From assembly GCA_016839245.1 (NCBI GenBank), contig JAEOUN010000121.1, positions 1 through 26,079 on the forward strand: DNA of 26,079 nt, read 5' to 3'. Below the pieces are notes generated by a model. The model saw nothing but the letters and a program-made list of their open reading frames with translations, made no database searches and was not told the DNA's origin. Both the position numbers and the translations under genes were made by a program. The stretch is from Candidatus Thorarchaeota archaeon. GTDB lineage: Archaea; Asgardarchaeota; Thorarchaeia; Thorarchaeales; Thorarchaeaceae. Below are positions 5,281 to 26,079 of the stretch, piece after piece; position 1 is the stretch's first letter, and the number at the start of each line of letters is the position of its first letter.

Positions 5281-5772
5281 GTGTCATATTATCTAGATAA
5301 CGTTGAAGTACAGCTTATCATGGGGCAGTTTGATGATTCTGATCTTGATCTTGTAGTTAAATCACAGGATATTCCTTTGGGACTCTCTCCATCAGGTATA
5401 TTAGGATCCGGTGGCACAGTAGGAGGTTTTGGCATCACAGTGAAAGAGGCAAGTAATGCTGGCACAGTTCTCCAATGGCCAGAGCTATCGATTGAAAATC
5501 CTGATAGAAGAGAATTAATTTATGAAACTACAAGGAATGCTTTAATCACAGCCGATGAGATTGAGGCTGTGAAAATTGGTTTATTCACCATGGGACTTGA
5601 GGTTTCTAGAATTCCAAGCTGGGAAGTTGCAGAAGAGATTGTGAGAGCAGTCTATGAATATTCAAGGGAACCCACGAAAATTGAAAAAGTATTCCTAGTT
5701 GTAAGCTCAACTACTCAAGAGAGTTCATTTCAATTTACTCTCAGCAATCCTACACTCTTACAACAACGGTAG
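5281..5772 (+). CDS. Degenerate macro-domain-like protein (putative pseudo-enzyme partner)
   Basis: This 163-residue protein is not obviously recognisable by motif, but its layout follows the macro fold. The first strand and turn (VEVQLIMGQFDDSDLDLVV) match IKTFIGDITELQVDAIV of the upstream protein. The C-terminal third (helix, VKIGLFTMGLEVSRIPSWEV, helix, KIEKVFLVVSS) matches the upstream AFPAIGAGVGGLSEQES...VKEITLVGLS segment in order and spacing. The catalytic NAAN and the glycine-rich phosphate loop are both replaced, so ADP-ribose binding is unlikely to be conventional. The start is GTG 5281, two bases after the preceding stop, with GAGGAG at 5264-5269. The next ATG (5320) would delete the first strand. 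It ends three bases from the convergent flavoprotein gene. The macro assignment is my inference from pattern alone. Confidence 0.7.
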   Translation: MSYYLDNVEVQLIMGQFDDSDLDLVVKSQDIPLGLSPSGILGSGGTVGGFGITVKEASNAGTVLQWPELSIENPDRRELIYETTRNALITADEIEAVKIGLFTMGLEVSRIPSWEVAEEIVRAVYEYSREPTKIEKVFLVVSSTTQESSFQFTLSNPTLLQQR

Positions 5773-5775
5773 GAT

Positions 5776-7152
5776 CTACATCTTCAATCTTTTTCGTGCG
5801 GCATCAGCAGACTGCACGAGAGGGTCCCACGTATCACAGATTGCAGGAGCATAACAGTTTTCAAAATCGAAGAGTTCTCGTACATCGATGTTTTGTTGAA
5901 TCCCGAGTGTTATGACATTAAGACGCATTGCAGCATCTTCCACACCGATGAGTTGCCCGCCAACAAGTTTACCATTCTCTTTGTTGAAATAAGTCTTGAG
6001 TTTCAGTTCTTTCCCACCTATATAATAAGGAGGCTTAGTGCTTCCCTTCATGGATCCTTTTACTACATCGATATTGTATCGTTTAGCGAGGTCTTCTGTT
6101 AATCCGGTACTTGCAATCTCAAGGCCGAATAATTTGGTAACCTTTGCACCCACTATGCCCGGAAACTGAGCATCGCCACCAGCCGCATTGATACCAGCAA
6201 CTCTCGCTTGTCTAACTGCAATTGTGCCAAGACCAGCAATTAGCGGATTGCTTGTAATGAAATCGATATTTTCCGCACAATCACCAACTGCATAGACATC
6301 AGCCAGATTTGTCATCATTTTGTTGTTTGTCTTTATACCTCGAGTTGGACCAATCTCAACGCCAATCTGTTTGGCTAATTCAGAAACAGGTCGAACACCA
6401 GTTGCAACTACCACAAAATCAGCAGGTATCTCTGTTATCTCTTCAGTAGCTCTATTCTTAACAAAAACTCCTTTTACAGTATCATCACCAGTTATCTCTT
6501 GAGCAGCAGTATTATTCAGTATCTTTAGTCCATGTTCACGACAATGATCTTCAATAATTTCAGCAATATCTGGATCAACCATAGCTAAAAGAATATGCGG
6601 CAGAAATTCAACAACTGTTACATCCAAACCTTTCTCATGAAAAGCTTCTGCAGCTTCCATTCCAATGAGGCCACCACCAATGATAACAGCTTTTTTGGCG
6701 TGACCAACTTCTTTTGCTAATGATTTAGCATCATCAAGAGTGCGTAATCCATAGATGTGATTTTTCTCTAAACCCTTGATTGGAGGATCTGTATTGATTG
6801 CTCCTGTGGCAAAAATTAGAGTGTCATATGCAAGTTCGCTTTCACCCTCAGTCCCAATATAGTGAAGTATTCGTTCTTTGTGGTTAATTGAAGTAACAGT
6901 AGATCCAAGATGTGCATTGATATTCAATCCAGTCCAATTATCTGCAGGCATTAAAACTAGGTCATCAAACTCCTTCACTTTGCCAGAGATCGTATAGGGT
7001 AATCCACAACGTGAATATTGTGAATATTTTTCAGAATTGAAAATAGAAATTTGGACTTCACGGTTGAATTTCCTTGCTTGCATTGCTGCCGTTGCTCCAG
7101 CAGCTCCACATCCGATTACTGCAATGTGTTTGGTCATCAGAGTTTCCTTCAT
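5776..7152 (-). CDS. CoA-disulfide reductase / NADH-oxidase-type flavoprotein
   Basis: This is a 458-residue pyridine-nucleotide-disulfide oxidoreductase. Residues 10-19 hold the FAD-binding GCGAAG. The SRCGLPY motif has the single redox cysteine (Cys49) typical of CoA-disulfide reductases, NADH peroxidases and oxidases. A second Rossmann motif GGGLIGME binds NAD(P)H, and YAVGDCAE is the second FAD contact. The C-terminal dimerisation domain ends in YAPAICDTWDPLVQSADAA, as in the CoADR group. Likely roles are reduction of CoA disulfide or polysulfide, or oxygen/peroxide detoxification; sequence does not separate these. TTG 7164 is possible, but GGAG at 7160-7163 followed by six bases points to ATG 7152. 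It is convergent with the macro genes, separated by three bases. Confidence 0.9.
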   Translation of the reverse strand: MKETLMTKHIAVIGCGAAGATAAMQARKFNREVQISIFNSEKYSQYSRCGLPYTISGKVKEFDDLVLMPADNWTGLNINAHLGSTVTSINHKERILHYIGTEGESELAYDTLIFATGAINTDPPIKGLEKNHIYGLRTLDDAKSLAKEVGHAKKAVIIGGGLIGMEAAEAFHEKGLDVTVVEFLPHILLAMVDPDIAEIIEDHCREHGLKILNNTAAQEITGDDTVKGVFVKNRATEEITEIPADFVVVATGVRPVSELAKQIGVEIGPTRGIKTNNKMMTNLADVYAVGDCAENIDFITSNPLIAGLGTIAVRQARVAGINAAGGDAQFPGIVGAKVTKLFGLEIASTGLTEDLAKRYNIDVVKGSMKGSTKPPYYIGGKELKLKTYFNKENGKLVGGQLIGVEDAAMRLNVITLGIQQNIDVRELFDFENCYAPAICDTWDPLVQSADAARKRLKM

Positions 7153-7261
7153 TATATTCTCCAATCAAGTGTTTGTGCTCGAAGCATTCCATAACTTGAA
7201 TCTTTGGAAATAACATATTTGAGAATAAAAAGAGAGATTATTCAAGAAATGAAGAGAAAGG

Positions 7262-7283
7262 GTGCAATGGTTGAATGCACACC
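7262..7283 (-). terminator. Weak hairpin downstream of the zinc-ribbon membrane protein
   Basis: About 55 bases past the stop at 7334, the minus strand has GTGCA-n9-TGCAC inside a GGTG...CACC context, followed by a pyrimidine-rich run (about 7230-7260). It is the only candidate end signal in this gap, and the stem is short. Confidence 0.3.
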
Positions 7284-7333
7284 TTTCACATAGGATGAGA
7301 ATCAGTATTCATCGCACCATTGCTAGATTTGGA

Positions 7334-8911
7334 TTAGACATCATCCTTCGTATCAGGCGAAATTTCTTCATTCTCATCAATATTAGATTCATCAACTCCA
7401 TTTATCAACTCAGAGTCTGTTGAGGTCTCATCAAGTTCTTTTGGCAATTCAGATTCTTCTTCACTCACATCTTCAACAGAAGGACTTGTCTCTTCAGATT
7501 CTTTCAGTTCTTCAGCGGCTTCTTTAGCTGCTTCAGTTTCTGTGGGCATCCATTTCTTTCCATTTTCTATATCATCTTGGAATTTTTTGATTTGGGTTTT
7601 CCTGCTAACATAAAGAGCGATAATTACTGCTAGTGACAGACCAGCTCCAATGAGTGTGATGGTCGTTTGGAATGTACTTGCACTGTCGCCAAGAAGCTGT
7701 TGCCACGTAATTACAAGAAAAACAAGCCCAGCAATATTCAAGACAAAACTTCGAAGCGGTGTCCCGACCTTAACAATCTCGGTAACATCAGTATCTACCA
7801 TTGAAGCAGCAATAACACCTGCATTATAATCAGTTGATTTGGTCTTCTTTGCAAGTGTTCTAATATCTGCTGACTTCTTCTTACCCATGACTTTCAATGC
7901 AATAGGAACTTTGGAAGCGAGAAGATCTGCATATTCTCGTCTTGCATCTTCTTCAGATAGATTGCACCTCTTACACATATTGAGTTTTTTATTCCAATCT
8001 CTAGTACATTTGGGACATTTGTCCATTGGCCAAGCATCAGGAGCAACCTCGCGTAGTCTTTGACGAATAATGTATTCACTTACTTTGGTTTCTTCTGGTG
8101 TTTCTTCTTGTGTTTTGTCTTTCTTCTTCCTGCCCATTTTTGTCATACCTGCAAGCATCGAGAAGAGGAGAGGAAGTGCTCCGATAACTGTGAGATTTGG
8201 TAAGGAACGTAGTTCTGACGCTTTTTTATGAATTCCCTTCAACTTGTAAGCTGTCTTTAATCCATCAAATAGACTCATGAAACCTTTTCCTACTCCGAAT
8301 ACAGCACCTATTGTTGCTACAGTCACTGACACTCCAGTAACTGATGTAAAAACATCTGCGGGAGTTGCAGGTATACTAAAGTAAAACTGATTGGAAACAG
8401 TATGAAGTGTATGGGGATCACTCTCCAAATAGTATTCAAACTTAATTGATGCTTCAAATATGCCAGTTGTCAATTTTACTGGACCATATTTTAATGCAGA
8501 CGCAAGGTCAATTGAAGCTGTCACTGGCTCTGGTGCTGATGTGTGGTCTACTGGAACCCAGGTTGAGTTTGTGGCTTGATCTATGATTTGAATTGGAAAA
8601 ATCGCAATACCTTGATAGAAGAAGGTTATTTTTCCACTCATATTCAAATCCTGTGTCGAAGTGATATTGATTTGCAGGTAAAGCTCCATTGGAGCATCCA
8701 TGTTTATTTCAATGGGAGTATCTTCTCCGGAAGTCTTCAGATTTGTTCCATCAAGACTTGCATAAACCCAAAGGGTGCCGTCATTGACAAAATCTGCATC
8801 AGACAATGGAATCTGTGCAGTACTAATTGGGGTATAATAACTCCCAACATATAGTAATAGAGCAAATATAAAGAGTCCGAGGAAAAGCATTCTAGAAGGA
8901 TTACGACGCAT
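7334..8911 (-). CDS. Membrane protein with extracytoplasmic beta-rich domain, zinc ribbon and acidic tail; unknown function
   Basis: This 525-residue protein starts with a hydrophobic signal/anchor (residues 9-27). A 155-residue beta-rich extracytoplasmic domain follows, with several N-x-S/T sites, then two hydrophobic segments (about 187-208 and 238-258). A lysine-rich region leads to a CxxC-x10-CxxC zinc ribbon (Cys299, 302, 313, 316). Two further hydrophobic segments (about 386-406 and 416-435) are followed by a very acidic tail from about 455. I do not recognise a family. The ribbon should face the cytoplasm if the topology is right. The start is ATG 8911; a GGAG lies 11 bases upstream, rather far. 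The response regulator ends 76 bases upstream on the same strand, so co-transcription is possible. Confidence 0.8.
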   Translation of the reverse strand: MRRNPSRMLFLGLFIFALLLYVGSYYTPISTAQIPLSDADFVNDGTLWVYASLDGTNLKTSGEDTPIEINMDAPMELYLQINITSTQDLNMSGKITFFYQGIAIFPIQIIDQATNSTWVPVDHTSAPEPVTASIDLASALKYGPVKLTTGIFEASIKFEYYLESDPHTLHTVSNQFYFSIPATPADVFTSVTGVSVTVATIGAVFGVGKGFMSLFDGLKTAYKLKGIHKKASELRSLPNLTVIGALPLLFSMLAGMTKMGRKKKDKTQEETPEETKVSEYIIRQRLREVAPDAWPMDKCPKCTRDWNKKLNMCKRCNLSEEDARREYADLLASKVPIALKVMGKKKSADIRTLAKKTKSTDYNAGVIAASMVDTDVTEIVKVGTPLRSFVLNIAGLVFLVITWQQLLGDSASTFQTTITLIGAGLSLAVIIALYVSRKTQIKKFQDDIENGKKWMPTETEAAKEAAEELKESEETSPSVEDVSEEESELPKELDETSTDSELINGVDESNIDENEEISPDTKDDV

Positions 8912-14534: not shown

Positions 14535-14617
14535 ACATGAGAGAATATGATGAATCAACCCAGAATGATTAAATTCGTGATTATCAGTAGAATTAATCTC
14601 AATGAGTGATGATTTGG

Positions 14618-15163
14618 ATGGAGAAAGACCCAGAATATGTCCTAAAGATGGTTGCACTTGGGGACGGAGCAGTAGGAAAAACATCCTGTATAATCAGGTT
14701 CACAGAAGACAACTTTGGTGAGAAGTATAAAGCTACAATTGGTACGAATATAGCAATTAAAACCTTAGAAGTCAAATTGGAATCAGGATTAGTTGCGAAG
14801 ACCCAAATTGTTCTCTGGGACCTTGCAGGTCAACCAACGTACAAAGAATTACGTAGTAGGTATATGACAGGTTCGTCAATAGCGTTCATGGTCTATGATG
14901 TAACAAGACCACCTACATTCATGAGCATCTATGAATGGTATCGAAATTTCAGAGCAGTCTGCCCTGAAGCCGTTGTCGCGCTTGTGGCAAATAAAGTAGA
15001 CAAAAAAGACCGTCTGGTTCCTCCAGAAGCTGGGATGATGCTCTCTAAATGGTTGAATCTAACATATTTTGAAACTTCTGCGAAAACTGGTAAGAATATT
15101 GAAGATCTATTCATTGAATGTGCTAAAATGGCAATCCATAAAGAGAGTCTAAAGGATGACTAA
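14618..15163 (+). CDS. Rab/Ras-type small GTPase
   Basis: This 181-residue single-domain GTPase has all G motifs in order: P-loop GDGAVGKT (15-22), switch I Thr in TIGTN (40-44), switch II WDLAGQ (67-72, with catalytic-type Gln72), NKVD (125-128) and TSAK (153-156). The WDLAGQ and YDVTRPPTF signatures are Rab/Ras/Arf-superfamily, which is heavily expanded in Asgard archaea. The C terminus ends in a charged KDD without cysteine, so there is no lipid-anchor site and membrane attachment would need a partner. GTG 14606 and ATG 14609 are alternative starts; GAGTGAT seven bases ahead favours ATG 14618. It follows the histidine kinase by about 80 bases and may share its transcript. A weak ATTAAATT at 14568-14575 could be its own promoter. 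Confidence 0.92.
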   Translation: MEKDPEYVLKMVALGDGAVGKTSCIIRFTEDNFGEKYKATIGTNIAIKTLEVKLESGLVAKTQIVLWDLAGQPTYKELRSRYMTGSSIAFMVYDVTRPPTFMSIYEWYRNFRAVCPEAVVALVANKVDKKDRLVPPEAGMMLSKWLNLTYFETSAKTGKNIEDLFIECAKMAIHKESLKDD

Positions 15164-15215: not shown

Positions 15216-16721
15216 CTATGGAAAGAATGTCTGAGCCGCATCAAACGCAAGATCAAGTATTATATTTGGAAAGACAAACAATGCAATTACTAGAATCGTG
15301 CAGATACCAACTGCAAGTATGGTGATTGATGGCAATTGTAATTTTGAATCCTCCAATGGTTCCTCCATATATGCATATTTTAACACTCGAAGATAGTAAC
15401 CAAGTGAGAAGACAGAATTAAGGAGGCCAACAAGTGCAAGCCACCACATTCCAGCAACAACAGCACTTTGGAAAAGAATCAGCTTCGACCAGAAACCAAC
15501 TGTCAAAGGCATTCCAGCAAGAGAGAGTATCAAGATAGCAAGCATCGCTGATGCAACTGGTGCTCTCTTACTTAACCCAGCTAAGTCATCATAGGTAATC
15601 CGCTTTGTCAGCTTAAAGGACATCGCCCAAATGAGAATGAATGCCGCGGATTTCATTATTGCATGAGTAAATGCATGAAATGATGCAGCAGCTATACCAA
15701 TTTCATTTCCAGCTGCAACACCAATGAAAAGATAACCCATCATGGCAATACTAGAATATGCAAGCATTCTCATGATGTCCTTCTGAGCTAATGCTAGTAC
15801 ATTCCCAATTATCATTGTCAGAATCGCGACACCAGCTATAAGGGGAAACCACTCAGTCTTAGCAAAGAAAAAGCCAATCATGAGAATTCGAATAAGCGCA
15901 CTGACACCAGTCTTCTTTGAACCTCCTGCAAGATATGCAGTGACACTGCCATCGGCGCTGGCATATGCATCGGGTACCCATTGCCATCCTGGGAATATTC
16001 CAACTTTGAATCCGAATGACACAATGAAAAGCACCACTGCAAGCAATAACGTATACGCCGCTGCTTCATTACCAACTGGTGCAGACCAAATAGTGTTAAC
16101 AAAGGCTCTGAGGGAATTGAGATCAGTTGTTCCTGCTACACCATAAGTCAATGCGATTCCAAATAGCATGAGCATCGTAGCTAAGAGACCCATAACGAAG
16201 TATTTTGTTGCTCCATCTACTGCCTCTCTCCTCGGACTTATTGCAACGAGAATATAGGTAGGAGTACTCATGACTTCCCAAGCTAGAAAGAGCGCGACAA
16301 GGTCTGTCGCCATGATAACCCAGAGAGCGCCTGCAAAAGATATCATCAAGAGGAAATTATAGACACCCCGGTCACCTCCCCATATAGTTGAAGACATAAG
16401 AACAAGAAATGCAACAAAAAGAACAATGTAGATGAAGAAATCAGTAAATGCGTCACGAACAAAGAGTGTTCCAAATGAGTAACCTGACATTATGCTTGGA
16501 TCAAACAAAACCATCTCTAGGCTCGAAACGATGACACCAATGAAACTAATAGTTAGAGGATTGTAGCGCAATCCAATTACGAGTGCCAATACTCCAAAAG
16601 CCACTAAGGTGAGAGCTGGAAGTGACATTATCCAATCGCTTGGAATGTATAGTAGTAGGAAGTTTCTCAGAGGAGTTAATGCATTTCGTACAAAATCAAT
16701 AATTATGGTAAGTTGCATCAT
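15216..16721 (-). CDS. nuoN: Complex I antiporter-like subunit NuoN
   Basis: This is a 501-residue, highly hydrophobic antiporter-like subunit and the last gene of the operon. The conserved charges are present: Glu in the FLAWEVMSTPTY helix, Lys in SFGFKVGIFPGWQWVPDAY, and the Lys pair in LAGGSKKTGVSALIR about 30 residues later. A further Lys lies in HAFTHAIMKSAAF. NuoN is the pump closest to the NuoA/J/K/H hub in known complexes. Its start overlaps the stop of nuoM2 by one base (TAATG), indicating coupled translation. Length is close to the bacterial norm (about 485). Confidence 0.95.
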   Translation of the reverse strand: MMQLTIIIDFVRNALTPLRNFLLLYIPSDWIMSLPALTLVAFGVLALVIGLRYNPLTISFIGVIVSSLEMVLFDPSIMSGYSFGTLFVRDAFTDFFIYIVLFVAFLVLMSSTIWGGDRGVYNFLLMISFAGALWVIMATDLVALFLAWEVMSTPTYILVAISPRREAVDGATKYFVMGLLATMLMLFGIALTYGVAGTTDLNSLRAFVNTIWSAPVGNEAAAYTLLLAVVLFIVSFGFKVGIFPGWQWVPDAYASADGSVTAYLAGGSKKTGVSALIRILMIGFFFAKTEWFPLIAGVAILTMIIGNVLALAQKDIMRMLAYSSIAMMGYLFIGVAAGNEIGIAAASFHAFTHAIMKSAAFILIWAMSFKLTKRITYDDLAGLSKRAPVASAMLAILILSLAGMPLTVGFWSKLILFQSAVVAGMWWLALVGLLNSVFSLGYYLRVLKYAYMEEPLEDSKLQLPSITILAVGICTILVIALFVFPNIILDLAFDAAQTFFP

Positions 16722-18304
16722 TATGGTAAACCTCCAGCTAACATTGTCTCAACTACAGGTTTTACAAGATGAAGAATCAGGTCAGGCCATATTCCAAAAA
16801 GAATGACTGGAATCAGCATTAAGATTGGTGCAATAAGATCAACCCATGACGATTCCTTGACATCTTTCTCAGGATCTGCATCACTGAAGACAATTCGATT
16901 AAGCATCCAGAGCATGTACCCAACGGTAATGAAGATACCCAATCCAATTAATGCAGACCAGTAGAAAACAACAATTGAACCAAAGATGATTAGGGCCTCA
17001 GCCATAAAACCACTGAATCCGGGAAGTCCAAAAGCTGCAAGAGTTGCAAGAATCAACACTGCAGACAATTTTGGTGCCTTTGTCATGAGACCCTTGATAT
17101 CAGGAATCTCACGTGTTCCTGCATTATACTTCAACTGTCCTGCAACAATAAACAAAACAGAGATGATTGTACCATGAGAGAACATCATGAAGATGGATCC
17201 CTGAATAGCTAAGCTTGCAGCAGCTTGGATTGTAGGGTCTGCAGAATTGAAACCAGCTGCATATGCTGCAACACCTAGTAGCACCCAAGACATATGGTTG
17301 ATTGAGGTGTATGCAACAAGACTCTTCATATCAGACTGAGCCATAGCTGTGAAAGCAGCATAGATACAGGTGAATATCGCAAGGATGGCAAAGGGTATAG
17401 CAAGTCTTGCAATAGCTGAAGGGACCATCCAGAGACCCAGACGGATAAATGCATAACCACCCATCTTCAGCAAGATGCCTGCAAGGATAACAGAGCCAGG
17501 CGTTGGAGCTTTAACATGTGCCCATGGCAACCAATTATGAAGTGGCCAAACTGGCAATTTGACACCAGCGCCCATAAAGAGAGCCAAAGCAAATCCAATC
17601 TGAACCCATGGTTCCAGACCAAGATTACGGAGAGCTACCATACTAAAAGTTGGAACCTCGGTCGCGATCCCAATCACATTCACCATTGAGGATTGAAAAT
17701 AGAGATAGAAGAATCCAACAAGCATGACTGCTGAGCCAAGATGAGTGTAAATGAAGAATTTGACCGCAGCATGACGAGAGCCTTCCTCGCCCCATCTGCC
17801 AATGATAAAGAACATCGGGATTAATACTAACTCCCACCATACAAAAAATCCAATGAGATCTAGAGCCATGAATACACCCAATAGTCCTGTTTGAAGAACG
17901 AGAAAGAGCATGTAGTATAGTCCTTCAGATTCGTGAATGTGATTGGAGCTAATTGCAGCAATCCATACAACAAGATTCGATAGTAGAATCATTACCATAG
18001 AGATACCATCTACGCCAAGAATAATCTCAAAGGTAGGTGAGTCAGATGTAGTACCAAGTCGAGCTAGAAGGTAGCTGATGGTATGACTCATGCCACCAGG
18101 ATCAGTCCCAAGCGAAGGTGTTCCCAAGATCAATAAACCGGATAGTCCTAACTCGATGGTAGTAATAAATAATGTAAAAGCACGGGCACCTCTCCCGCCA
18201 ACGAGATAGGCGACCAAGGCACCAATCAGAGGTACCAAGAGCATCAAAACTAAAATATTCACTGGGAGTAAATTGATTAAACTTGATGCGAGTTCCAATT
18301 GCAT
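16721..18304 (-). CDS. nuoM: Complex I antiporter-like subunit NuoM (canonical copy, M2)
   Basis: This 527-residue subunit is close to canonical NuoM. It has VWWELVLIPMFFIIGRWG with Glu158, MGAGVKLPVWPLHNWLP with Lys249, and APTPGSVILAGILLKMGGY with Lys280. The 31-residue spacing between the two lysines is the same as in E. coli NuoM. GFSGFMAEALIIFGS carries the distal Glu. All proton-path charges are therefore present, in contrast to the other NuoM copy at 20505-21989. The start ATG directly abuts the nuoL stop. Confidence 0.95.
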   Translation of the reverse strand: MQLELASSLINLLPVNILVLMLLVPLIGALVAYLVGGRGARAFTLFITTIELGLSGLLILGTPSLGTDPGGMSHTISYLLARLGTTSDSPTFEIILGVDGISMVMILLSNLVVWIAAISSNHIHESEGLYYMLFLVLQTGLLGVFMALDLIGFFVWWELVLIPMFFIIGRWGEEGSRHAAVKFFIYTHLGSAVMLVGFFYLYFQSSMVNVIGIATEVPTFSMVALRNLGLEPWVQIGFALALFMGAGVKLPVWPLHNWLPWAHVKAPTPGSVILAGILLKMGGYAFIRLGLWMVPSAIARLAIPFAILAIFTCIYAAFTAMAQSDMKSLVAYTSINHMSWVLLGVAAYAAGFNSADPTIQAAASLAIQGSIFMMFSHGTIISVLFIVAGQLKYNAGTREIPDIKGLMTKAPKLSAVLILATLAAFGLPGFSGFMAEALIIFGSIVVFYWSALIGLGIFITVGYMLWMLNRIVFSDADPEKDVKESSWVDLIAPILMLIPVILFGIWPDLILHLVKPVVETMLAGGLP

Positions 18305-20494
18305 CTATATCACCCCCAGACTCAACAAGGCTATTATAACCAATAGCCCAAATCCAAATATTACAATACTAACATAGTCATTGATTTTTCCAGTCTGCGA
18401 TTCAAGTCCCACTTCAGATGCCTCAACACTCACTTTAGAGATGCCCTCAGCAAATCCATCAATGATATTATCATCAAACCATCGGACTTTCTTTGAGATA
18501 CTCTGAGCAGCGTCTGCAGACTTGAAATCAATACCATCAATGACCTTATCATCAACTTCTCTGCGCCAAAGATCAGCGAAGCGGAGAAACTTATCTACAA
18601 ACCAATAATATGCTTCATTGATATACCATCGGTGCTTTAAGAAAGAGTAGAGTCTGCGGCGAATCCCTGTTGCTGGTATTGCAGTATTAGGTGTATCTGC
18701 ATTCTTTATGTAAATCCAATATGCAGGAATCCCCCCTAGAAGTAGTGCACCAATTGTAATGCCAAATGGGATTAATCCTGGAAGAGTAAACTTGGCTACT
18801 ACCATCTCAAATAATATCTCTTGGAATAATTCGATTGTTATTGGTCCCTCGTTAAGCATTATAATCTGAACCAATGGAAATACTAGAAATGCGAAGATGG
18901 TAAAGATAGCTAAGACATATAATGGAATCATCATAGCCATTCCAGGGTCATGAGGTTCATCATGATGTTCATCTCCCGGATGTTCTGGCCTTTTCCCATG
19001 AAATACCATTCCTACTAAGCGGATACTATAGAATATTGTACATGCAGCAGCACTCACTGAGAGAATAAAGAGAAATGTTCCCACTAAGCTAGTCTCTGCA
19101 AATTCAAAGGTATACTCGATGATTGAGTCTTTTGACCAGAATCCAGACATCGGAGGGATTCCAGCTAATGCTGCAACACCAATCAAAATAACGCGATAAG
19201 TCCATTTCATCGAGTCTTTAAGTCCACCCATATTTGACATGTACTTTGTATGGACAGCATGGATGACACCGCCAGCAGCTAAGAATAGTAATGCTTTGAA
19301 AGCCCCATGAGAAATAATATGTAACACTCCACTAAGATGAGCAAATTCATAATGTCCTTCTATTGCAAAGACACCTGCTGTGCCAAGAGCAAGAATCATG
19401 TATCCAAGTTGACTGAGTGTAGAAAATGCAAGGACCTGTTTTAGTTCATTTGAAACCATGCCCATTGTAGCAGTCATGAATGCTGTGACCGCTCCTATTA
19501 TGGCTACCATGACAAAGAAGGATGATGCCATCTCGATACCAAAAGTCTGTAGTGGAACTAGAGTAGCAATATGCTCTCCGCCACTAGCAACAGATGTCGC
19601 GCCAACTATTGTAATCAAGAACCTAGCAGTGATATAGACTCCGGCCTTGACCATTGTTGCGGCGTGAATCAAAGCAGATACAGCAGTCGGACCCGCCATA
19701 GCTTCAGGTAACCACACTTGCAGGGGAGCCTGACCGGATTTTCCAATAGCACCTGCAAAAATAAGAATCAGAGCCGGAACGAGAAGACCCCACGCAGCCA
19801 TAGTGCTCCACCACTGGTTTATATTATTTGAAAGGTCAGTGAAGAGAAACGAACCAGTGAAAGTGAAGAGGAGGAGGATGCCACCAAGCATGAATGCATC
19901 ACCGACTCTTGTAACAATGAATGCCTTTGTTCCACAGTGAGTGTTATATTCGCCTTCAGTCTTAAACTTGAGGAGGGGATTGTTTTGTTCATATCCTAGA
20001 GGATCTCTCTCAGGGGGATTATGTTTATCATTCCAGAAACCAATGAGTCCGTAACTGCAAAAGCCCATGATTTCCCAACCAATGAATGCAATGAGTAGGT
20101 TATTACTGAGGACAAGTGTAAGCATTCCGCCACCAAAAGCAAGCATTAGGAAGAAGAACCGATTTCTATCCTCTTCATGTGCCATGTACTCAGTAGAATA
20201 CACATAGATAAGGAAACAGAGCGTACTTGATAGAATTGCCATGATGATTGAGAGTGGATCAAGAAGCATCTCAAAGGGAACATAGAGACCAGGGATGTTA
20301 ATCCATTCCCAATGTGGCATCTGTGTTGTTTCTAGGTCCATGAGGAGTGACCAACATAGAATCATGGTAATCCCCATGAAAATTGCAGGAGTCCAGTCGC
20401 GAAGCTTTTCGTTAAATCTGCCAACGACAGGAACAAGCAATGAGCCTGCAAGGGGAATTACAAGGATGAGATAGTAAGGTAAGCCAAGTATCAT
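18305..20494 (-). CDS. nuoL: Complex I antiporter-like subunit NuoL with enlarged lateral helix
   Basis: This 729-residue subunit is over 100 residues longer than E. coli NuoL (613). The core motifs are intact: Glu in FIGWEIMGFCSYGLIGFW, Lys in GAIGKSGQAPLQVWLPEAM, HAATMVKAGVY, and Lys in HGAFKALLFLAAGGVIH. The C-terminal amphipathic helix runs about 625-708. It holds two DDxxIDG motifs, at Asp648-Gly654 and Asp674-Gly680, exactly 26 residues apart. Against a typical NuoL helix recalled from memory, it is about 26 residues longer. Such an insertion is the known adaptation for holding a fourth pump. ATG 20494 has GAGGTGA ahead of it, ten bases after the stop of the first nuoM. Confidence 0.95.
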   Translation of the reverse strand: MILGLPYYLILVIPLAGSLLVPVVGRFNEKLRDWTPAIFMGITMILCWSLLMDLETTQMPHWEWINIPGLYVPFEMLLDPLSIIMAILSSTLCFLIYVYSTEYMAHEEDRNRFFFLMLAFGGGMLTLVLSNNLLIAFIGWEIMGFCSYGLIGFWNDKHNPPERDPLGYEQNNPLLKFKTEGEYNTHCGTKAFIVTRVGDAFMLGGILLLFTFTGSFLFTDLSNNINQWWSTMAAWGLLVPALILIFAGAIGKSGQAPLQVWLPEAMAGPTAVSALIHAATMVKAGVYITARFLITIVGATSVASGGEHIATLVPLQTFGIEMASSFFVMVAIIGAVTAFMTATMGMVSNELKQVLAFSTLSQLGYMILALGTAGVFAIEGHYEFAHLSGVLHIISHGAFKALLFLAAGGVIHAVHTKYMSNMGGLKDSMKWTYRVILIGVAALAGIPPMSGFWSKDSIIEYTFEFAETSLVGTFLFILSVSAAACTIFYSIRLVGMVFHGKRPEHPGDEHHDEPHDPGMAMMIPLYVLAIFTIFAFLVFPLVQIIMLNEGPITIELFQEILFEMVVAKFTLPGLIPFGITIGALLLGGIPAYWIYIKNADTPNTAIPATGIRRRLYSFLKHRWYINEAYYWFVDKFLRFADLWRREVDDKVIDGIDFKSADAAQSISKKVRWFDDNIIDGFAEGISKVSVEASEVGLESQTGKINDYVSIVIFGFGLLVIIALLSLGVI

Positions 20495-20504
20495 CTAATT
20501 CACC

Positions 20505-21989
20505 TCATGGATAGAGAATACCTGAAAACACCGGGACTATGACATCAAGTGCCAAGCTCGGAAATATTCCAAAGATTACAATGAGAACTCCAAGAATGAT
20601 CATCGGGATGGTCATCGAGTTAGGACTCTCTTTAACGTCTTCAAGTTCTTGGGGATTTGTGCCCAAAAAGACTCTCCAAAAGAAGCGAAGCATGTAAGCA
20701 GCACTTAGGATGGAACTAGACACAGCAAGAATAGAGAGGAGTAGGAATCCCATATTCACACCTGCTCCTGGAATTGGCATTGCTGCATTGAAACCACCAA
20801 GGAACATCATCCACTCACTCTGAAAACCTGACAGTGGAGGACTTCCTGCAATACTCATCATGCCTATTGCTGCTGCAAAGGCAGTAATGGGCATCTTATT
20901 TGATAGACCACCCATCTTCTTGATATCACGGAGTCCAGTCTGGTGGATTACTGCACCAGCTGTCATAAACAAGAGACCCTTAGAGAAAGCATGATTAATC
21001 AGATGGAACATACCACCTGATACTCCAGTAACTGTAACAGTTCCTAATGCAAAAAGGACATATCCCATCTGAGAAACCGAAGAATAAGCTAGGAGTCGTT
21101 TGATATCCAATTGCGCAAGTGCCATGAATCCTCCATAAAACATTGTGATAACGCCTAGAGCTGAAACCCAGAATGAAAGAGAAACGGCAGCAGCGTTCAA
21201 GGTGATAATACCGAATCGAACAAGAGCATAAGCACCAGTTTCAATCATTGCACCAGATAAAAGTACAGAGATAGGAGTTGGTGCCTCTGCGTGAACTGGA
21301 GGGAGCCACCAGTGAATTGGGAAGACTGCCATTTTGACCAGAAATCCTGCAGCAAGAAGGATGAAGATGATTTTAAAGATGAGTTCACCATTAGTCATGA
21401 TATTAGCAAGGACGAATGAGCCACCCTGAGCGTACAGGAGACCAAAACCAATCAGGATACAGACTGCACCTGATTGAGTATAAAGCCAGAATTTGAGGGC
21501 AGTGCGTTTCCTAGTTTCAGGAAGTCCCCAGAAGAGGATGAGGAAGTAGCTAGGGACCAACATAATTTCCCAAGCAATAAAAAATTCAATCATGTTAGTA
21601 GCAAGAGTGACCCAAGTCATACCCATGATAAAGAAGAGCTGGTTTGAAAAGAAGGTCGGTTTATTTTCGGTGTGTTCTGTGTATCCCACTGCATACACGA
21701 TAGACAGGAATCCCAATATCACAACTGCAAACGTTATTGGAAAAGCTACTGCATCAAGATACAGACCAAAGGGTTCGAGAATTTCAGACCAGATAGCAGT
21801 TTCTACGGAGCTTCCCACAGTAAGTAATTCATAGAAAGGTGGAATCATAAGGGTAGTAGCAAAGAGAGAAACGCCAACTGCAACCTTTCCAGCAAGCTCC
21901 TTCAGAATATTCTTGAACACATAGATGAATAGACCACCAAAGAACATGACAGCTAATGAGAGTGCCATGAAAGGAATTCCAAAAACCAT
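20505..21989 (-). CDS. Second NuoM-like antiporter subunit (M1), fourth pump of the complex
   Basis: This is a 494-residue antiporter-like subunit between nuoI and nuoL. It has FFIAWEIMLVPSYF with Glu141, AAGFLVKMAVFPIHWWLP with Lys219, and LSGAMIETGAY with Glu250. Glu250 sits 31 residues after Lys219, exactly where NuoM normally has the central Lys. NHAFSKGLLFM keeps the later Lys and SGFQSEWMMF the distal Glu. The sequence looks as close to Mrp/hydrogenase-type pumps as to NuoM. The frame extends to 22013, but ATG 21989 overlaps the nuoI stop by one base and has GGGAGG eight bases ahead. With L, M2 and N it makes four pumps in one operon. Confidence 0.92.
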   Translation of the reverse strand: MVFGIPFMALSLAVMFFGGLFIYVFKNILKELAGKVAVGVSLFATTLMIPPFYELLTVGSSVETAIWSEILEPFGLYLDAVAFPITFAVVILGFLSIVYAVGYTEHTENKPTFFSNQLFFIMGMTWVTLATNMIEFFIAWEIMLVPSYFLILFWGLPETRKRTALKFWLYTQSGAVCILIGFGLLYAQGGSFVLANIMTNGELIFKIIFILLAAGFLVKMAVFPIHWWLPPVHAEAPTPISVLLSGAMIETGAYALVRFGIITLNAAAVSLSFWVSALGVITMFYGGFMALAQLDIKRLLAYSSVSQMGYVLFALGTVTVTGVSGGMFHLINHAFSKGLLFMTAGAVIHQTGLRDIKKMGGLSNKMPITAFAAAIGMMSIAGSPPLSGFQSEWMMFLGGFNAAMPIPGAGVNMGFLLLSILAVSSSILSAAYMLRFFWRVFLGTNPQELEDVKESPNSMTIPMIILGVLIVIFGIFPSLALDVIVPVFSGILYP

Positions 21990-22420
21990 TATCGAAACCT
22001 CCCTCCACGCCATTCTAATGGATCTCTGTCGAGAGTAGTGATCTTTTCAGGTCCATAGAGAAGTTCTTCCTTCTCACCTTCGGATATGTCAACTATCTTT
22101 GTGTGGTACAGTGCATCGAATCTACATGCTGCAACACAATCACCACAGAAGATACAGCGAGTATAATCGAAGTATAATGCAGCATCCTTCTCGAATTTTC
22201 TGTCCTCTTTATCAATACGAATTGCCGAAACAGGACAGGCCCTCACACACTGAGCGCATGCAGTACAATTCTCACGGATGTGTATATGTCTGCCCCGGGT
22301 TATGTCAGGATACAGTCTATCCTCATAGGGATAGAAGTACGTGAAGGGTCTGCGAAATGCCTGTCGAAAGACATGTTTTAAGATTCGAAAGATATCACCT
22401 AGATTACTGAGAAATCCCAT
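21989..22420 (-). CDS. nuoI: Complex I iron-sulfur subunit NuoI
   Basis: This 143-residue 8Fe ferredoxin-type subunit carries clusters N6a/N6b on the electron path to NuoB. The cysteine sets are Cys52-55-58-62 (CTACAQCVRACP) and Cys89-92-95-99 (CIFCGDCVAACR). The second set lacks the usual following Pro (Arg instead). The N-terminal amphipathic helix (FRQAFRRPFTYFYP) resembles the membrane-contacting start of other NuoI proteins. ATG 22420 has GGAGGT overlapping the end of nuoH. Confidence 0.95.
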   Translation of the reverse strand: MGFLSNLGDIFRILKHVFRQAFRRPFTYFYPYEDRLYPDITRGRHIHIRENCTACAQCVRACPVSAIRIDKEDRKFEKDAALYFDYTRCIFCGDCVAACRFDALYHTKIVDISEGEKEELLYGPEKITTLDRDPLEWRGGRFR

Positions 22421-22424
22421 TTTA

Positions 22425-23570
22425 TCAACCTCCTGTCACAAGTGGAAAAAGTCCAGGAATGTAGACTAGTGCAAACATCACCACGACAACATTGAGTATT
22501 GACAATGGTATGAGGTACTTCCAACACAGATGGACAATTTGGTCCTGCCGAATTCGATAGAAGGACGATGTAACAACAATGAAGATGAAAAATACCACAA
22601 GCCATTTGATTGCAAAATTAATGATCCCTGGGACAAATGGGAGACCATTGGATCCACCAAAGAATAGAGTCACCATGATCGCACTGTAAAGCATCTGTTC
22701 AGCAAATTCAGCAAAGTAGACCAATGTGAAATAGATGCCAGACAACTCTGTACGCCAACCAAAAATAATCTCACTATCAGCAACGGGAGCATCAAATGGA
22801 AAAGTTCCAACTGACGCAATTGCTGCAACGAGAAACGTAGCAAAATTGATTGGAAGAAGAACGATGTACCAGATGTTTGTCTGAGCTTGAACAATTCCAA
22901 ACATGCTAAGAGATCCTGCTAGCATCGCCGGCCCAACAGATGATATAACCATTGGAATCTCTGAAGCAAACTGATTGTTTGCCGCTCTAAATCCACCAAT
23001 AAGCGAATATTTTGAACCAGACACCCATCCGATGAGAAGTGATAATACAGGAACTGCAGTGAGGAATGCAAAAACAAGAACAAGGCTAACCGATAGGTCA
23101 GGAAATGCTGGATTACCTAGAATGTTCCAGACGGGGTCCCATGGAATGAAAGCAAATGGAAGAAGAACAATGATCAAGAGAAGCGATGGCAGAATCCTAT
23201 AAGCCCAGCGTCGTGCCTTATCAGGAATGATAGTCTCTTTGCCCATGAGTTTGATTGCATCCGCAATCAATTGAAGGCCGCCATATTTCCCAACATGAGT
23301 GGGACCTCTACGATCTTGAATACGAGCCCAAGTCTTTCGTGTAAACCAGATAGTAAAAATGAGAGCAAGAACAATGAAAATCAGGCCTGGAAAGACAAGA
23401 GCTCTAAAGAGAAACATGAAGTTCGTAGGCACGATGATAATTGCCCAAAGACCGTTAAGGAGTCCTATTACCCACAAGAATAACCAGTTAACAATACCCC
23501 AAAGCCAGAAGAGAACTCCAATTAACCAGTTCCAGATTCCGTCAAGCCAAATAAAGAAATCAAACTGCAT
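22425..23570 (-). CDS. nuoH: Complex I membrane subunit NuoH with Trp-rich N-terminal extension
   Basis: This 381-residue subunit forms part of the quinone chamber. Family motifs are RIQDRRGPTHVGKYGGLQLIA (here from residue 83), the acidic-loop region SEIPMVISSVGPAML, and PFDAPVADSEIIFGWRTELSG. The conserved RxGP lies near residue 88, against about 46 in E. coli. About 40 residues are therefore added at the start: a hydrophobic helix with eight Trp between residues 8 and 42. The frame opens at 23663, but ATG 23570 has a perfect AGGAGGTG seven bases ahead, overlapping the nuoD stop. The extension is therefore part of the protein under the best-supported start. Confidence 0.94.
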   Translation of the reverse strand: MQFDFFIWLDGIWNWLIGVLFWLWGIVNWLFLWVIGLLNGLWAIIIVPTNFMFLFRALVFPGLIFIVLALIFTIWFTRKTWARIQDRRGPTHVGKYGGLQLIADAIKLMGKETIIPDKARRWAYRILPSLLLIIVLLPFAFIPWDPVWNILGNPAFPDLSVSLVLVFAFLTAVPVLSLLIGWVSGSKYSLIGGFRAANNQFASEIPMVISSVGPAMLAGSLSMFGIVQAQTNIWYIVLLPINFATFLVAAIASVGTFPFDAPVADSEIIFGWRTELSGIYFTLVYFAEFAEQMLYSAIMVTLFFGGSNGLPFVPGIINFAIKWLVVFFIFIVVTSSFYRIRQDQIVHLCWKYLIPLSILNVVVVMFALVYIPGLFPLVTGG

Positions 23571-23583
23571 ATCATAGCACCTC

Positions 23584-24720
23584 CTAACGATCCCACCATC
23601 CTGGATATGGATCCAAGCTACCAAATATGGCAGGAAAGTCTGCAAATCTCGAACCTGGAACAATGTGCTTTAGAGAATAATATGATGCAAAACACGGACC
23701 ACGTATCTTTGCACGATAAGGAGTCTGAGACTTTTCCAATGTCTTCAACCATACTGTCGTGATTCCACGAGCACCTTCAATTCTGCCATAAGCCTCACCT
23801 TCAGGTAAGCGATTCACCTTAGCTCGTGCTTTTTGATCAATAATATCGCCTTCTGGAAGTAATGGCAGCAGTTGACGTATTATTTGAAGGGAAGTATCAA
23901 TTTCTTTGAACCTCTGAATGAGTCTATCATATGCATCACATTCACCTGGATGATCAGGATTATTCGTTACAGGAACTTCCCAATCCACCAGATTATACGC
24001 AAGATTTGGATCCGCGTCATCCTTTCGCAAATCCATAGGAATTCCACATGCCTTAATATTAGGACCCGTAAGTCCCCACCTCAATGCATTCTTAGCAGTA
24101 TATTGACCAACTCCTTCCGTTCGCAATCTGAAGGTAGGGCTACCCTGTAACATATCACTAAAGAGTGGTAACCGCTCTTGAATACGAGTAACAGCTTTTT
24201 CCATTTTCTCTAAAAACTTGGGAGTGAAATCATACTTTACTCCTCCAGGAGTATTATACGAAACACTATGACGAGACCCAGTCAGCTCTTCAAAGGCATC
24301 AAGGGTATACTCTCTGTCAACCCATGGCCAGAGTAACATGGCAAAGAGCCCAAGTTCACCTGCAATTTGACCCCACCAAAATTGGTAAGAATGGATGCGA
24401 TTGAGCTCAATCATTATTGTACGCATAATCTTTGCACGTTCAGGAATTTCTAAATCAACTATCTTTTCGACTGCAGCAATGTATGGATACTCGGCAATGA
24501 TAGCTTCAACCAAACACATCCGTTCAAGTATCATAGAACCCTGCCTAAAATTCCTGAATTCAAGACACTTCTCTGCTGAACGATGAAAATACCCGGCATG
24601 AGGATCACATTCAACAATATAGTCACCGACAAGTATGAGTTTAGTAGCCCAGCCATGCGCACTTACATGTTGAGGACCAAACCAGATCTCACTGGCTTCG
24701 TCAAGAATGTCAGGTTTCAT
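23584..24720 (-). CDS. nuoD: Complex I 49-kDa subunit NuoD
   Basis: This is a 378-residue quinone-site subunit, related to the large subunit of [NiFe] hydrogenases. It starts with FGPQHVSAHG (histidine loop) and keeps the tyrosine in HSVSYNTPGG (Tyr155), matching the quinone-contacting Tyr. The hydrogenase L1 motif is reduced to ERMCLVE with one Cys (Cys69). The C-terminal DPCxxC of hydrogenases reads DPYPGW (370-375), so both nickel-binding cysteines there are aromatic. Hydrogenase activity is therefore excluded. The ATG overlaps the nuoC stop by four bases (ATGA). Confidence 0.95.
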   Translation of the reverse strand: MKPDILDEASEIWFGPQHVSAHGWATKLILVGDYIVECDPHAGYFHRSAEKCLEFRNFRQGSMILERMCLVEAIIAEYPYIAAVEKIVDLEIPERAKIMRTIMIELNRIHSYQFWWGQIAGELGLFAMLLWPWVDREYTLDAFEELTGSRHSVSYNTPGGVKYDFTPKFLEKMEKAVTRIQERLPLFSDMLQGSPTFRLRTEGVGQYTAKNALRWGLTGPNIKACGIPMDLRKDDADPNLAYNLVDWEVPVTNNPDHPGECDAYDRLIQRFKEIDTSLQIIRQLLPLLPEGDIIDQKARAKVNRLPEGEAYGRIEGARGITTVWLKTLEKSQTPYRAKIRGPCFASYYSLKHIVPGSRFADFPAIFGSLDPYPGWWDR

Positions 24721-25229
24721 GACGACTCACCTCCAGTTGCGGGTTTTGGTCTAGGAGTTGAGAGTCCTGTTTCATCGACACGACTCCTATCAGTGAGAAA
24801 TCGTTTACGCATTGGGTACTCCCCTACAAGCTCGTCAGGGAGTAAAAGAGGACGCATGTCAGGGTGGTTCTTGAATGTGATACCAAACATCTCAGATGTT
24901 TCACGCTCGTGCCATTCAAATCCAGGAAAAATATCACTCACAGTAGCAATCTCTGGATTCTTTCCTTCTAATGCTACACGAAGTTGACAAAGTAACTTTG
25001 ATTCGTGAGACCAGATGATGTAGATGACTTCATACTTGTCGTTCTCTAAATCTATGCCAAAGGCAGCCTCTGGAAGAGCATCTGGAAGTTGTTCATCAAT
25101 CATAGATACTAAATCTCGAATGATTGGTGCAGGAACTATTAATTCCACTTTGTTGCCATCAAGAAGTTTCGAAGAAACATCAGGGTGTTTGTTGATGACC
25201 GCTCTTGCAAATGTTGATGCGTCAACCAT
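24717..25229 (-). CDS. nuoC: Complex I 30-kDa subunit NuoC
   Basis: This 170-residue soluble subunit scaffolds the peripheral arm with NuoD. The signature is FPGFEWHERETSEMFGI followed by NHPDMRPLLLPDE and YPMRKRF, matching the Complex1_30kDa pattern. The C-terminal end is rich in Pro/Gly and short. An upstream ATG at 25277 exists, but ATG 25229 has GGAGG nine bases ahead and overlaps the nuoK end by eight bases. NuoC is separate from NuoD here, not fused as in E. coli. Confidence 0.93.
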   Translation of the reverse strand: MVDASTFARAVINKHPDVSSKLLDGNKVELIVPAPIIRDLVSMIDEQLPDALPEAAFGIDLENDKYEVIYIIWSHESKLLCQLRVALEGKNPEIATVSDIFPGFEWHERETSEMFGITFKNHPDMRPLLLPDELVGEYPMRKRFLTDRSRVDETGLSTPRPKPATGGESS

Positions 25230-25542
25230 CAATATCATCCTCCAGATGAATAGGTTGTCCAAGGTCAACAGTACCATAGCGTCGATGATACATAAGCATC
25301 AGAACCATGGCGAGAGCAGTATGAGCTGCAGCTACAGAAATGACTAGGATGATTAGGCCTTGTCCAGTAAATGAGAAGATTGGATTATAAATTGAAACTG
25401 CAACAAGAGCAATGTTTACACCATTACCCATTATTTCAGCTGAAATTAGGATACGAATGAGATTCCTCTTTACCATCATACCATAGGCACCGAAACCTAT
25501 CATAATGAATGAAACAACAAGATACCAAGATAATGGAATCAT
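25222..25542 (-). CDS. nuoK: Complex I membrane subunit NuoK
   Basis: This 106-residue, three-helix subunit has the first conserved Glu in place (Glu36, LISAEIMGNGVNI). The position of E. coli Glu72 (LAAAEASIG) is His74 here (VAAAHTALA); the codon is an unambiguous CAT. It begins MIPLSWYL, like other NuoK proteins. ATG 25542 overlaps the nuoJ stop by four bases, with GGAGG ten bases ahead. The acidic tail (LEDDIDG) is slightly longer than usual. Confidence 0.95.
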   Translation of the reverse strand: MIPLSWYLVVSFIMIGFGAYGMMVKRNLIRILISAEIMGNGVNIALVAVSIYNPIFSFTGQGLIILVISVAAAHTALAMVLMLMYHRRYGTVDLGQPIHLEDDIDG

Positions 25543-26079
25543 GATGAATCATCCTCCTGTTCTTGTTTGGAAGAGGTCTCAATATCTACCTCAGATGAAA
25601 TGTCATCAATTGGTTCTTCAACTGATTCAATACCATATATTCCCGTTATAGGCCTAACACGTTCAGCCTTCTCCATCTTCAAGATCGCAATAGATCCAAC
25701 AATAGCAGTAAGGAGAATTAATGCAATCATCTGTACATAGATACCATGATCAGACCAAAGCCATTGTGCTAATAATTCGAGGTTATCTTCCAATGGTGGT
25801 GTTTCAGGTGAAAAGGTTTCATACCATGGAAACATCAGGGCAAGAGCAGCAGAGAGAGTTCCAACAAGAGCAGATAGAACTAATCCAGCTCTTCGCCGTT
25901 GGGGAGATGCAAAAGTTTCTAATGATGAGTCTTGAGCACGCGGCAAAAGCAGGACTGCGAAAATGATGAGAGCACTTATTCCCCCGGTATAGACAGCAAT
26001 CTGCATCCCTGCAACAAACGGTGCTTCAAGAAGTAAAAAGAAACCTGAAACAAAGGCAGCCATGAATCCGAAGAAGAAA
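25539..26079 (-). CDS. nuoJ: Complex I membrane subunit NuoJ, 5' end beyond the window
   Basis: The frame is open to the window edge. Upstream of an internal ATG at 26063 it continues with Phe/Gly codons and no stop. Compared with E. coli NuoJ, the visible part starts near the second helix; VAGMQIAVYTGGISALIIFAVLLLP matches FAGALEIIVYAGAIMVLFVFVVMM. About 40 N-terminal residues are therefore probably missing. Two more hydrophobic segments follow, then an acidic Ser/Glu-rich tail of roughly 40 residues ending in QEDDSS, which is longer than usual. It is the most upstream visible gene of the operon. A and B, absent here, may precede it. Confidence 0.9.
   Translation of the reverse strand, partial: FFFGFMAAFVSGFFLLLEAPFVAGMQIAVYTGGISALIIFAVLLLPRAQDSSLETFASPQRRRAGLVLSALVGTLSAALALMFPWYETFSPETPPLEDNLELLAQWLWSDHGIYVQMIALILLTAIVGSIAILKMEKAERVRPITGIYGIESVEEPIDDISSEVDIETSSKQEQEDDSS

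Follow-up and report, generated by a model that had tools for sequence, protein, structure and literature searches.

An archaeal complex I operon with four antiporter-like pumps raises the question of where the extra pump came from and whether it is built into the membrane arm. In the window (the whole 26,079-nucleotide stretch of Thorarchaeota DNA analysed here), a single minus-strand cluster has the order J-K-C-D-H-I-M1-L-M2-N. Its open reading frames bear out the original prediction that M1 (20505..22013, 502 residues), L (18305..20494, 729 residues), M2 (16721..18304, 527 residues) and N (15216..16721, 501 residues) are four antiporter-like pumps of one operon. M1 overlaps the NuoI-like iron–sulfur subunit I (21989..22420) by 25 bases, and L and M2 abut. 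The rest of the cluster, on the same strand, consists of H (NuoH, 22425..23663, start codon uncertain), D (NuoD, 23584..24720), the NuoC-like C (24717..25277), the NuoK-like K (25222..25542) and the NuoJ-like J (25539..26063), the N-terminus of J probably being cut by the window end. Neither the open reading frames of the window nor the upstream part of a relative's locus (L008) included NuoE, NuoF or NuoG of the NADH module, which is also absent from Fpo-type and other complexes. A flavin dehydrogenase fused to NuoB lies upstream of the cluster in relatives. Judging by the gene complement and its arrangement, the placement of the subunits in trees, signature residues and the length of the lateral helix of L, we consider it likely that Thorarchaeota have a four-pump complex I with a hybrid membrane arm, with H, N and M2, and a D devoid of NiFe ligands, of the complex I kind, and M1 and L from the middle and distal pump lineage of Asgard group-4 hydrogenase-type complexes.

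L has the complete NuoL fold, including a lateral helix (HL; residues 622–696, 18407..18631, minus strand), which AlphaFold2 predicts as one continuous helix, with low confidence near its end (pLDDT <50 at residues 693–705). As the original prediction had it, the helix contains the motif DDxxIDG twice, as DDKVIDG at residues 648–654 (18533..18553, minus strand) and as DDNIIDG at residues 674–680 (18455..18475, minus strand), exactly 26 residues apart. The underlying DNA forms a 27-nucleotide repeat with a spacing of 78 and 85% identity. In the window protein by itself, the repeat is weak outside the motif, with seven identities at offset 26, and shuffling gives a P value of 0.034 for that offset and of 0.49 for any offset from 18 to 34. 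Across relatives the repeat is firm. Among the best 120 Thorarchaeota-type L matches listed, the C-terminal anchor is retained by 117, of which 110 show both motifs in strict form at a spacing of 26 and seven have near-variants. The self-similarity of a profile of 97 sequences with an HL of 77 residues has its maximum at offset 26, a value reached in 4 of 500 permutations of the columns. As had been suggested, the helix could plausibly have lengthened by local duplication of a unit of 26 residues.

Measured as the number of residues between the fixed anchors WYIN and QTG, HL is 77 residues long in the window L, in comparison with 48 in Escherichia coli, 53 in Shinella and 52 in Phocaeicola; the predicted excess of about 26 residues is therefore real, and it holds equally against the three-pump hydrogenase-type L of Asgard archaea. 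We surveyed 91 L frames, covering loci with a frame of 440 residues or more and part of the genomes initially listed. Twenty-four truncated clusters were not counted, except for two in which all four genes are present (L002 and L003); one locus in which L lies apart from the other pumps (L069) was excluded, one genome (G101) entered twice (L089 and L122), and an L broken by a stop (L127) was used as separate pieces. Within the hydrogenase-type L, HL length tracks pump number, being 24–25 residues in 18 of 19 two-pump clusters, 51–52 in all 28 untruncated three-pump clusters and 77–78 in all 11 Thorarchaeota four-pump clusters, although many of the "hydrogenase-type" cluster labels derive from L with no D sequence. 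The one exception is a two-pump cluster with an HL of 74 (L072). The Asgard NuoL of complex I type behave differently: HL is 78–79 or 104 residues in 10 of 10 untruncated clusters that have three pump genes only, so that HL length fails there as a pump counter and a longer helix cannot by itself be taken as proof of a fourth pump. A similar mismatch between HL length and pump number is described for Manganitrophaceae in PMC9040806.

These counts bear on the claim that the insertion makes a built-in fourth pump likely. The three-pump complex-I-type enzymes weaken it as a general rule, but it regains strength for the window L because this protein belongs to the hydrogenase-type lineage, in which HL does follow the number of pumps. 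The same data give some room to a reading in which M1, though encoded in the operon, is no fixed part of the arm, acting as an alternative outer pump, an assembly variant or an independent antiporter, and drift within the lineage, with no fourth pump, accounts for the long HL. Long helices beside three pump genes are what this reading would expect, and M1 carries Glu in the TM8 column in which NuoM has Lys, so that pumping by M1 is not assured. Against it stand the trend within L's own lineage and the gene order, as M1-L-M2-N is kept in all 11 four-pump-gene clusters examined, with M1 directly preceding L in each, and we regard a loosely associated M1 as unlikely.

The long-HL genomes with complex-I-type L could in principle encode further pumps elsewhere, but none was seen in 12 of 12, assembly gaps being possible. 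Five of them (G119, G113, G043, G086 and G099) have exactly three antiporter-like (PF00361) genes, a count that again fits an M1 outside the arm. In six others (G078, G072, G066, G028, G105 and G024), the additional PF00361 matches belong to two-pump hydrogenase-type clusters, the M and N of G105 sitting on a contig outside this check; in G110 they comprise one such cluster and an L fragment of the same type at a contig end. A single shared origin of the long HL in Thorarchaeota L and in complex-I-type L is disfavoured (P value 8.6e-5). A bolder reading takes HL as a ruler of 26-residue units, one for each pump crossed: Thorarchaeota would have placed an M1-L pair of hydrogenase type onto the arm of complex I, with one unit added, and the Asgard enzymes with an HL of 78–79 or 104 and three pump genes would reuse the same NuoM within one arm, so that three genes could yield as many as five pumps. 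We hold this extended ruler to be improbable.

The hybrid arm itself depends on the ancestry of L and M1. Trees of L built without HL put the Thorarchaeota L on the hydrogenase-type side (support 98, and 99 in a second tree) and group it with the three-pump hydrogenase-type L (97, and 100/98 in another tree); 14 L rows were left out of the tree giving 98 and 97, and 22 out of that giving 99. Loci added later are in the HL survey and partly in the L tree giving 100/98 and in the analysis of H and D, the earlier trees having been built from the original set. Uniting the Thorarchaeota L with the Asgard complex-I L in one group is rejected (P value 2.2e-6). Keeping the hydrogenase-type L in one group that excludes the Thorarchaeota L is also disfavoured (P value 0.0115), and the latter thus lies among them. 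This nesting argues against the opposite course of events, in which the hydrogenase-type L and middle pumps came from a four-pump enzyme like that of Thorarchaeota, or in which both arms descend from an older shared one and four pumps are an ancestral condition retained in Thorarchaeota, as does the far wider spread of hydrogenase-type L in the Asgard genomes surveyed. The trees, being unrooted, carry no direction of transfer, but we think such a course quite improbable.

Pump groups were named following a first tree. M1 joins the hydrogenase-type middle pumps with a support of 97/95 in a tree of 35 rows chosen out of 88, and with just 84 in a larger M/N tree from which five M/N rows were left out. 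All seven M1 and all 15 hydrogenase-type middle pumps have Gln in the column that corresponds to His322 of E. coli NuoM, and all 21 NuoM have His there. The notion that this is an ordinary 2M complex I whose extra pump is a second NuoM, as first proposed and as published for such complexes, can draw on the four pumps, on the HL insertion of about 26 residues and on the score of M1 above the curated NCBIfam NuoM cut-off (295.6 versus 263.8 bits), but it has very little probability left, since sisterhood of M1 and M2 by tandem duplication is rejected in two trees (AU test, P values 7.5e-51 and 4.4e-30), a place of M1 inside NuoM is rejected moderately (P value 0.020, 35-row tree) and M1 bears the Gln signature. 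In the one tree made with them, M1 did not join two MrpD rows of a single Sinorhizobium cluster, which form long branches. M2 falls with NuoM (support 100), N with NuoN (100) and H with complex I (100). D has no CxxC in seven of seven Thorarchaeota, whereas the two CxxC pairs of [NiFe]-hydrogenases are present in all 12 hydrogenase-type D examined. In the analysis of H and D, the placement of D agrees with complex I but does not settle it.

Under the hybrid-arm reading, we infer that all four pumps assemble in one complex, and the stoichiometry, direction, ion and electron donor proposed below are as conditional as that assembly. With a lateral helix one 26-residue unit longer than that of its three-pump kin, L could span three neighbours (M1, M2 and N) in place of two. 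As electrons pass to quinone, charge would be displaced outward along J/K, N, M2, M1 and L, and with the additional pump the number of ions moved for each electron pair would rise by about one, from four to five. Such a stoichiometry would require a larger drop in redox potential, or would deliver a stronger push when the enzyme runs in reverse. The probable donor in relatives would be the NuoB-fused flavin dehydrogenase, ferredoxin at I, or both.

Four-pump complexes with HL insertions were, as predicted, already in print, archaea included. The 2M complex I (Chadwick et al. 2018, ISME J, as related in PMC7300363, PMC7117926, PMC9040806 and PMC7419157) has four antiporter-like pumps and, like the Thorarchaeota enzyme, an HL extended by roughly one unit of 26 residues; PMC7300363 gives heterotrophic marine Thaumarchaeota as archaeal examples and describes the extra pump as a NuoM duplication, a description that sets it apart from the hydrogenase-type M1 and L found here. 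The Asgard group-4 [NiFe]-hydrogenases with full-length HL, reported in PMC11291895 for Freyarchaeia and Atabeyarchaeia, come close in that the Thorarchaeota L and M1 group with the L and middle pump of Asgard hydrogenase-type clusters, but Thorarchaeota differ from them in the missing NiFe cysteines of D, in M2, N and H of complex I type and in an HL of 77 in place of 51–52 residues. As outlined in PMC9040806, Complex_I_3 of Manganitrophaceae is likewise a two-source hybrid arm with a 26-residue HL insertion, but it has five pumps and other sources, with two MrpD-like proteins replacing NuoL; the rhizobial green complex I, in the same account, resembles our case in its four pumps with non-canonical outer ones and differs in that two MrpD-like proteins take the place of NuoL. 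The long-HL Asgard enzymes of complex I type (Heimdallarchaeota, Hodarchaeales and Kariarchaeaceae among the names) also show D..(I/V)D units at about 26 residues in HL, but have only three pump genes and an L in another clade. The hybrid origin, the 25/52/77 series of HL lengths and the flavin dehydrogenase–NuoB fusion upstream in relatives are apparently new.

The hybrid arm would represent a second route to an extra pump, in which complex I was fitted with the outer half of an arm of hydrogenase type and NuoM was not copied, in an Asgard lineage, among the archaea closest to eukaryotes. The 25/52/77 series offers a way to test what the lateral helix does, a matter of long debate, and any ruler model has to account for its counter-examples, the three-pump enzymes in which HL measures 78 or 104 residues. 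The flavin dehydrogenase–NuoB fusion would imply a non-NADH entry point for electrons, and it bears on the direction in which such a high-gear enzyme runs.

The genes J, K, C, D, H, I, M1, L, M2 and N occupy positions 15216–26063 on the minus strand, and four of them (M1, L, M2 and N) encode antiporter-like pumps. The original prediction had located two DDxxIDG motifs in the lateral helix (HL) of L, and its coordinates and both motifs were correct, DDKVIDG spanning residues 648–654 and DDNIIDG residues 674–680. The order M1-L-M2-N recurred in 11/11 four-gene clusters examined, the window included, all with an HL of 77–78 residues between the fixed anchors WYIN and QTG. Of the loci matched by L in genome contigs, 9 of 10 were labelled Thorarchaeota and 1 just archaeon, and the names among the best 120 protein matches were Thorarchaeota except for one Lokiarchaeota and one Promethearchaeota label, which assigns the window to an Asgard archaeon of Thorarchaeota type. 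Among the matches listed, 116 of 118 Thorarchaeota-type L proteins of at least 600 residues had an HL of 77–78, the remaining two (0 and 15) being apparently cut. Small Ras/Rab-like GTPase genes are typical of Asgard genomes, and a gene read from the sequence at 14606–15163, past nuoN and on the opposite strand to it, is one that we take to be of this kind.

We searched 119 Asgard genomes and found L-like genes in 87, the neighbourhoods being examined for part of these. The examined loci were of three kinds: hydrogenase-type clusters with two or three pumps, complex-I-type clusters in which L is accompanied by an M resembling NuoM and an N resembling NuoN, and the Thorarchaeota clusters. NiFe cysteines were present in 12/12 checked D proteins of the hydrogenase-type clusters, many of which were classed from L alone. 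In trees computed without HL, the Thorarchaeota L fell on the hydrogenase-type side (support 98 and 99 in two trees) and grouped with L of three-pump hydrogenase-type clusters (97 in one tree, 100/98 in another). In the pump trees, M1 joined the hydrogenase-type middle pump (83, 84 and 97/95 in three trees), M2 grouped with NuoM and N with NuoN; H grouped with complex I with support 100. Tree tests, whose p-values are not fully independent because an initial tree had served to name the groups, rejected a grouping of Thorarchaeota L with Asgard complex-I L (p 2.2e-6) and M1 and M2 as sister copies, rejected less strongly than this sisterhood a position of M1 anywhere inside NuoM (p 0.020), and were compatible with D grouped with complex I (p 0.58), a grouping that the tree does not establish. 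No CxxC was found in D of 7/7 Thorarchaeota. The possibility that the extra pump is a NuoM duplicate, raised by the original prediction, did not survive the pump trees, given the placement of M1 and the rejected sisterhood; these sequence comparisons make a hybrid the best interpretation of the Thorarchaeota membrane arm. A possible intermediate is L069, a cluster of genome G015 with complex-I-type M and N and an HL of 78, yet with hydrogenase-type cysteines (CGIC, CIAC) in D.

Where E. coli NuoM has His322, the aligned residue was Gln in M1 (7/7) and in hydrogenase-type middle pumps (15/15) and His in NuoM (21/21). The Lys265 column held Glu in M1 (7/7) and Lys in NuoM (21/21), and the 15 hydrogenase-type middle pumps were split among Lys (6), Glu (5), Gln (2) and Gly (2). 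The TM12 column was Glu in M1 and M2 and Lys in L and N, placing two Glu-type pumps side by side in the Thorarchaeota arm; all three columns presumably have functional roles in pumps. Changing the TM12 Glu of E. coli NuoM to Lys lowered pumping, which was still present, according to PMC9271201.

The long helix had also been taken as a sign of four pumps, and within the hydrogenase-type lineage of L helix length does follow pump number. Untruncated two-pump clusters had an HL of 24–25 in 18/19 cases (the exception, L072, having 74) and three-pump clusters one of 51–52 in 28/28. Two two-pump clusters with HL 24–25, L065 (genome G013) and L099 (genome G024), branch within a section of the L tree otherwise made up of three-pump clusters with HL 52, so the link between helix length and pump number does not reflect only one old split; in both, one pump and one helix unit were probably lost together. 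Helix length supports four pumps in Thorarchaeota because of the lineage of L, but the reasoning fails for complex-I-type L: all 10 untruncated clusters had three pumps, with an HL of 78–79 in 6 and 104 in 4, and five long-HL genomes of this type each carried exactly three antiporter-like genes. HL length is no general marker of pump number. The HL of 104 in clusters L067, L071, L081 and L082 (genomes G078, G119, G113 and G072) equals four units of ~26 residues, with three pump genes per cluster; relatives near this type carry the names Hodarchaeales, Heimdallarchaeota, Kariarchaeaceae and others, and the NuoL protein P0240 has an HL of 103 with three clear VDVNIVD units. AlphaFold2 predicted a single helix for the window's HL (622–696) and two helices for the HL of an HL-104 relative (624–691 and 702–729), with low confidence there. 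The helix rise is 1.5 Å per residue, giving ~39 Å for one 26-residue unit. Extra-long HLs also occur in two further Manganitrophaceae complexes, as PMC9040806 describes.

The repeat at a 26-residue spacing is firm across relatives, but in the window's protein alone it barely extends past the motif; its DNA repeat is 27 nt long, 85% identical and 78 nt apart. Among the matches listed, 110/117 relatives with an intact C-terminus had both motifs at a spacing of 26. Profile self-similarity peaked at offset 26 for HL-77 (97 rows; the peak was reached in 4/500 permutations) and for HL-104 (53 rows; reached in 0/500), and the HL-52 profile (11 rows) had no peak at this offset. L072 (genome G103; L at 5445–7529) contains a fresh tandem copy with 48/51 identical bases at a 75-nt step, which the repeat-finding search did not report. 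The unit repeated across relatives and this fresh copy make tandem copying of a ~26-residue unit a plausible route of helix growth.

Upstream of J and outside the window, NuoB was fused in frame behind a FAD-linked dehydrogenase in 9/9 Thorarchaeota loci with upstream DNA (L008, at 87–2042, L002, L004, L007, L009 and L130–L133; some cut at the locus end), and none of the remaining 36 Asgard frames with a NuoB match showed such a fusion. In L008, a single frame of 651 residues carries the Pfam domains PF01565, PF02913 and PF01058; we take the flavin family concerned to include glycolate and D-lactate dehydrogenases. Both PF01565 and PF01058 occurred in 46 of the best 120 protein matches listed, in which the named proteins were Thorarchaeota except for one labelled Hodarchaeota.

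The original observation is correct, but our reading departs from the proposed one on two points, namely where the fourth pump came from and what the helix signifies. Four-pump 2M complex I was reportedly published already by Chadwick in 2018. Clade 2 of 2M complex I is reported from heterotrophic marine Thaumarchaeota (PMC7300363), which means that the Thorarchaeota enzyme is not the first four-pump complex I known from archaea. A 26-residue HL insertion and a five-pump hybrid (PMC9040806) and an Asgard hydrogenase with full-length HL (PMC11291895) have been described. By title and abstract, with most subscription papers and bioRxiv outside the search, we found no paper dealing with the FAD-NuoB fusion, with a four-pump complex in Thorarchaeota or with a hydrogenase-type origin of that complex.

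According to PMC3274701, an insertion of six to seven residues into HL between NuoL and NuoM lowered pumping efficiency, a result that fits a coupling or clamp role of HL. The four-pump enzyme would move about five ions per two electrons, and the extra ion would require a larger redox drop; plain NADH oxidation would therefore be less likely than reverse use or the supply of electrons by a donor of low potential, for example ferredoxin.
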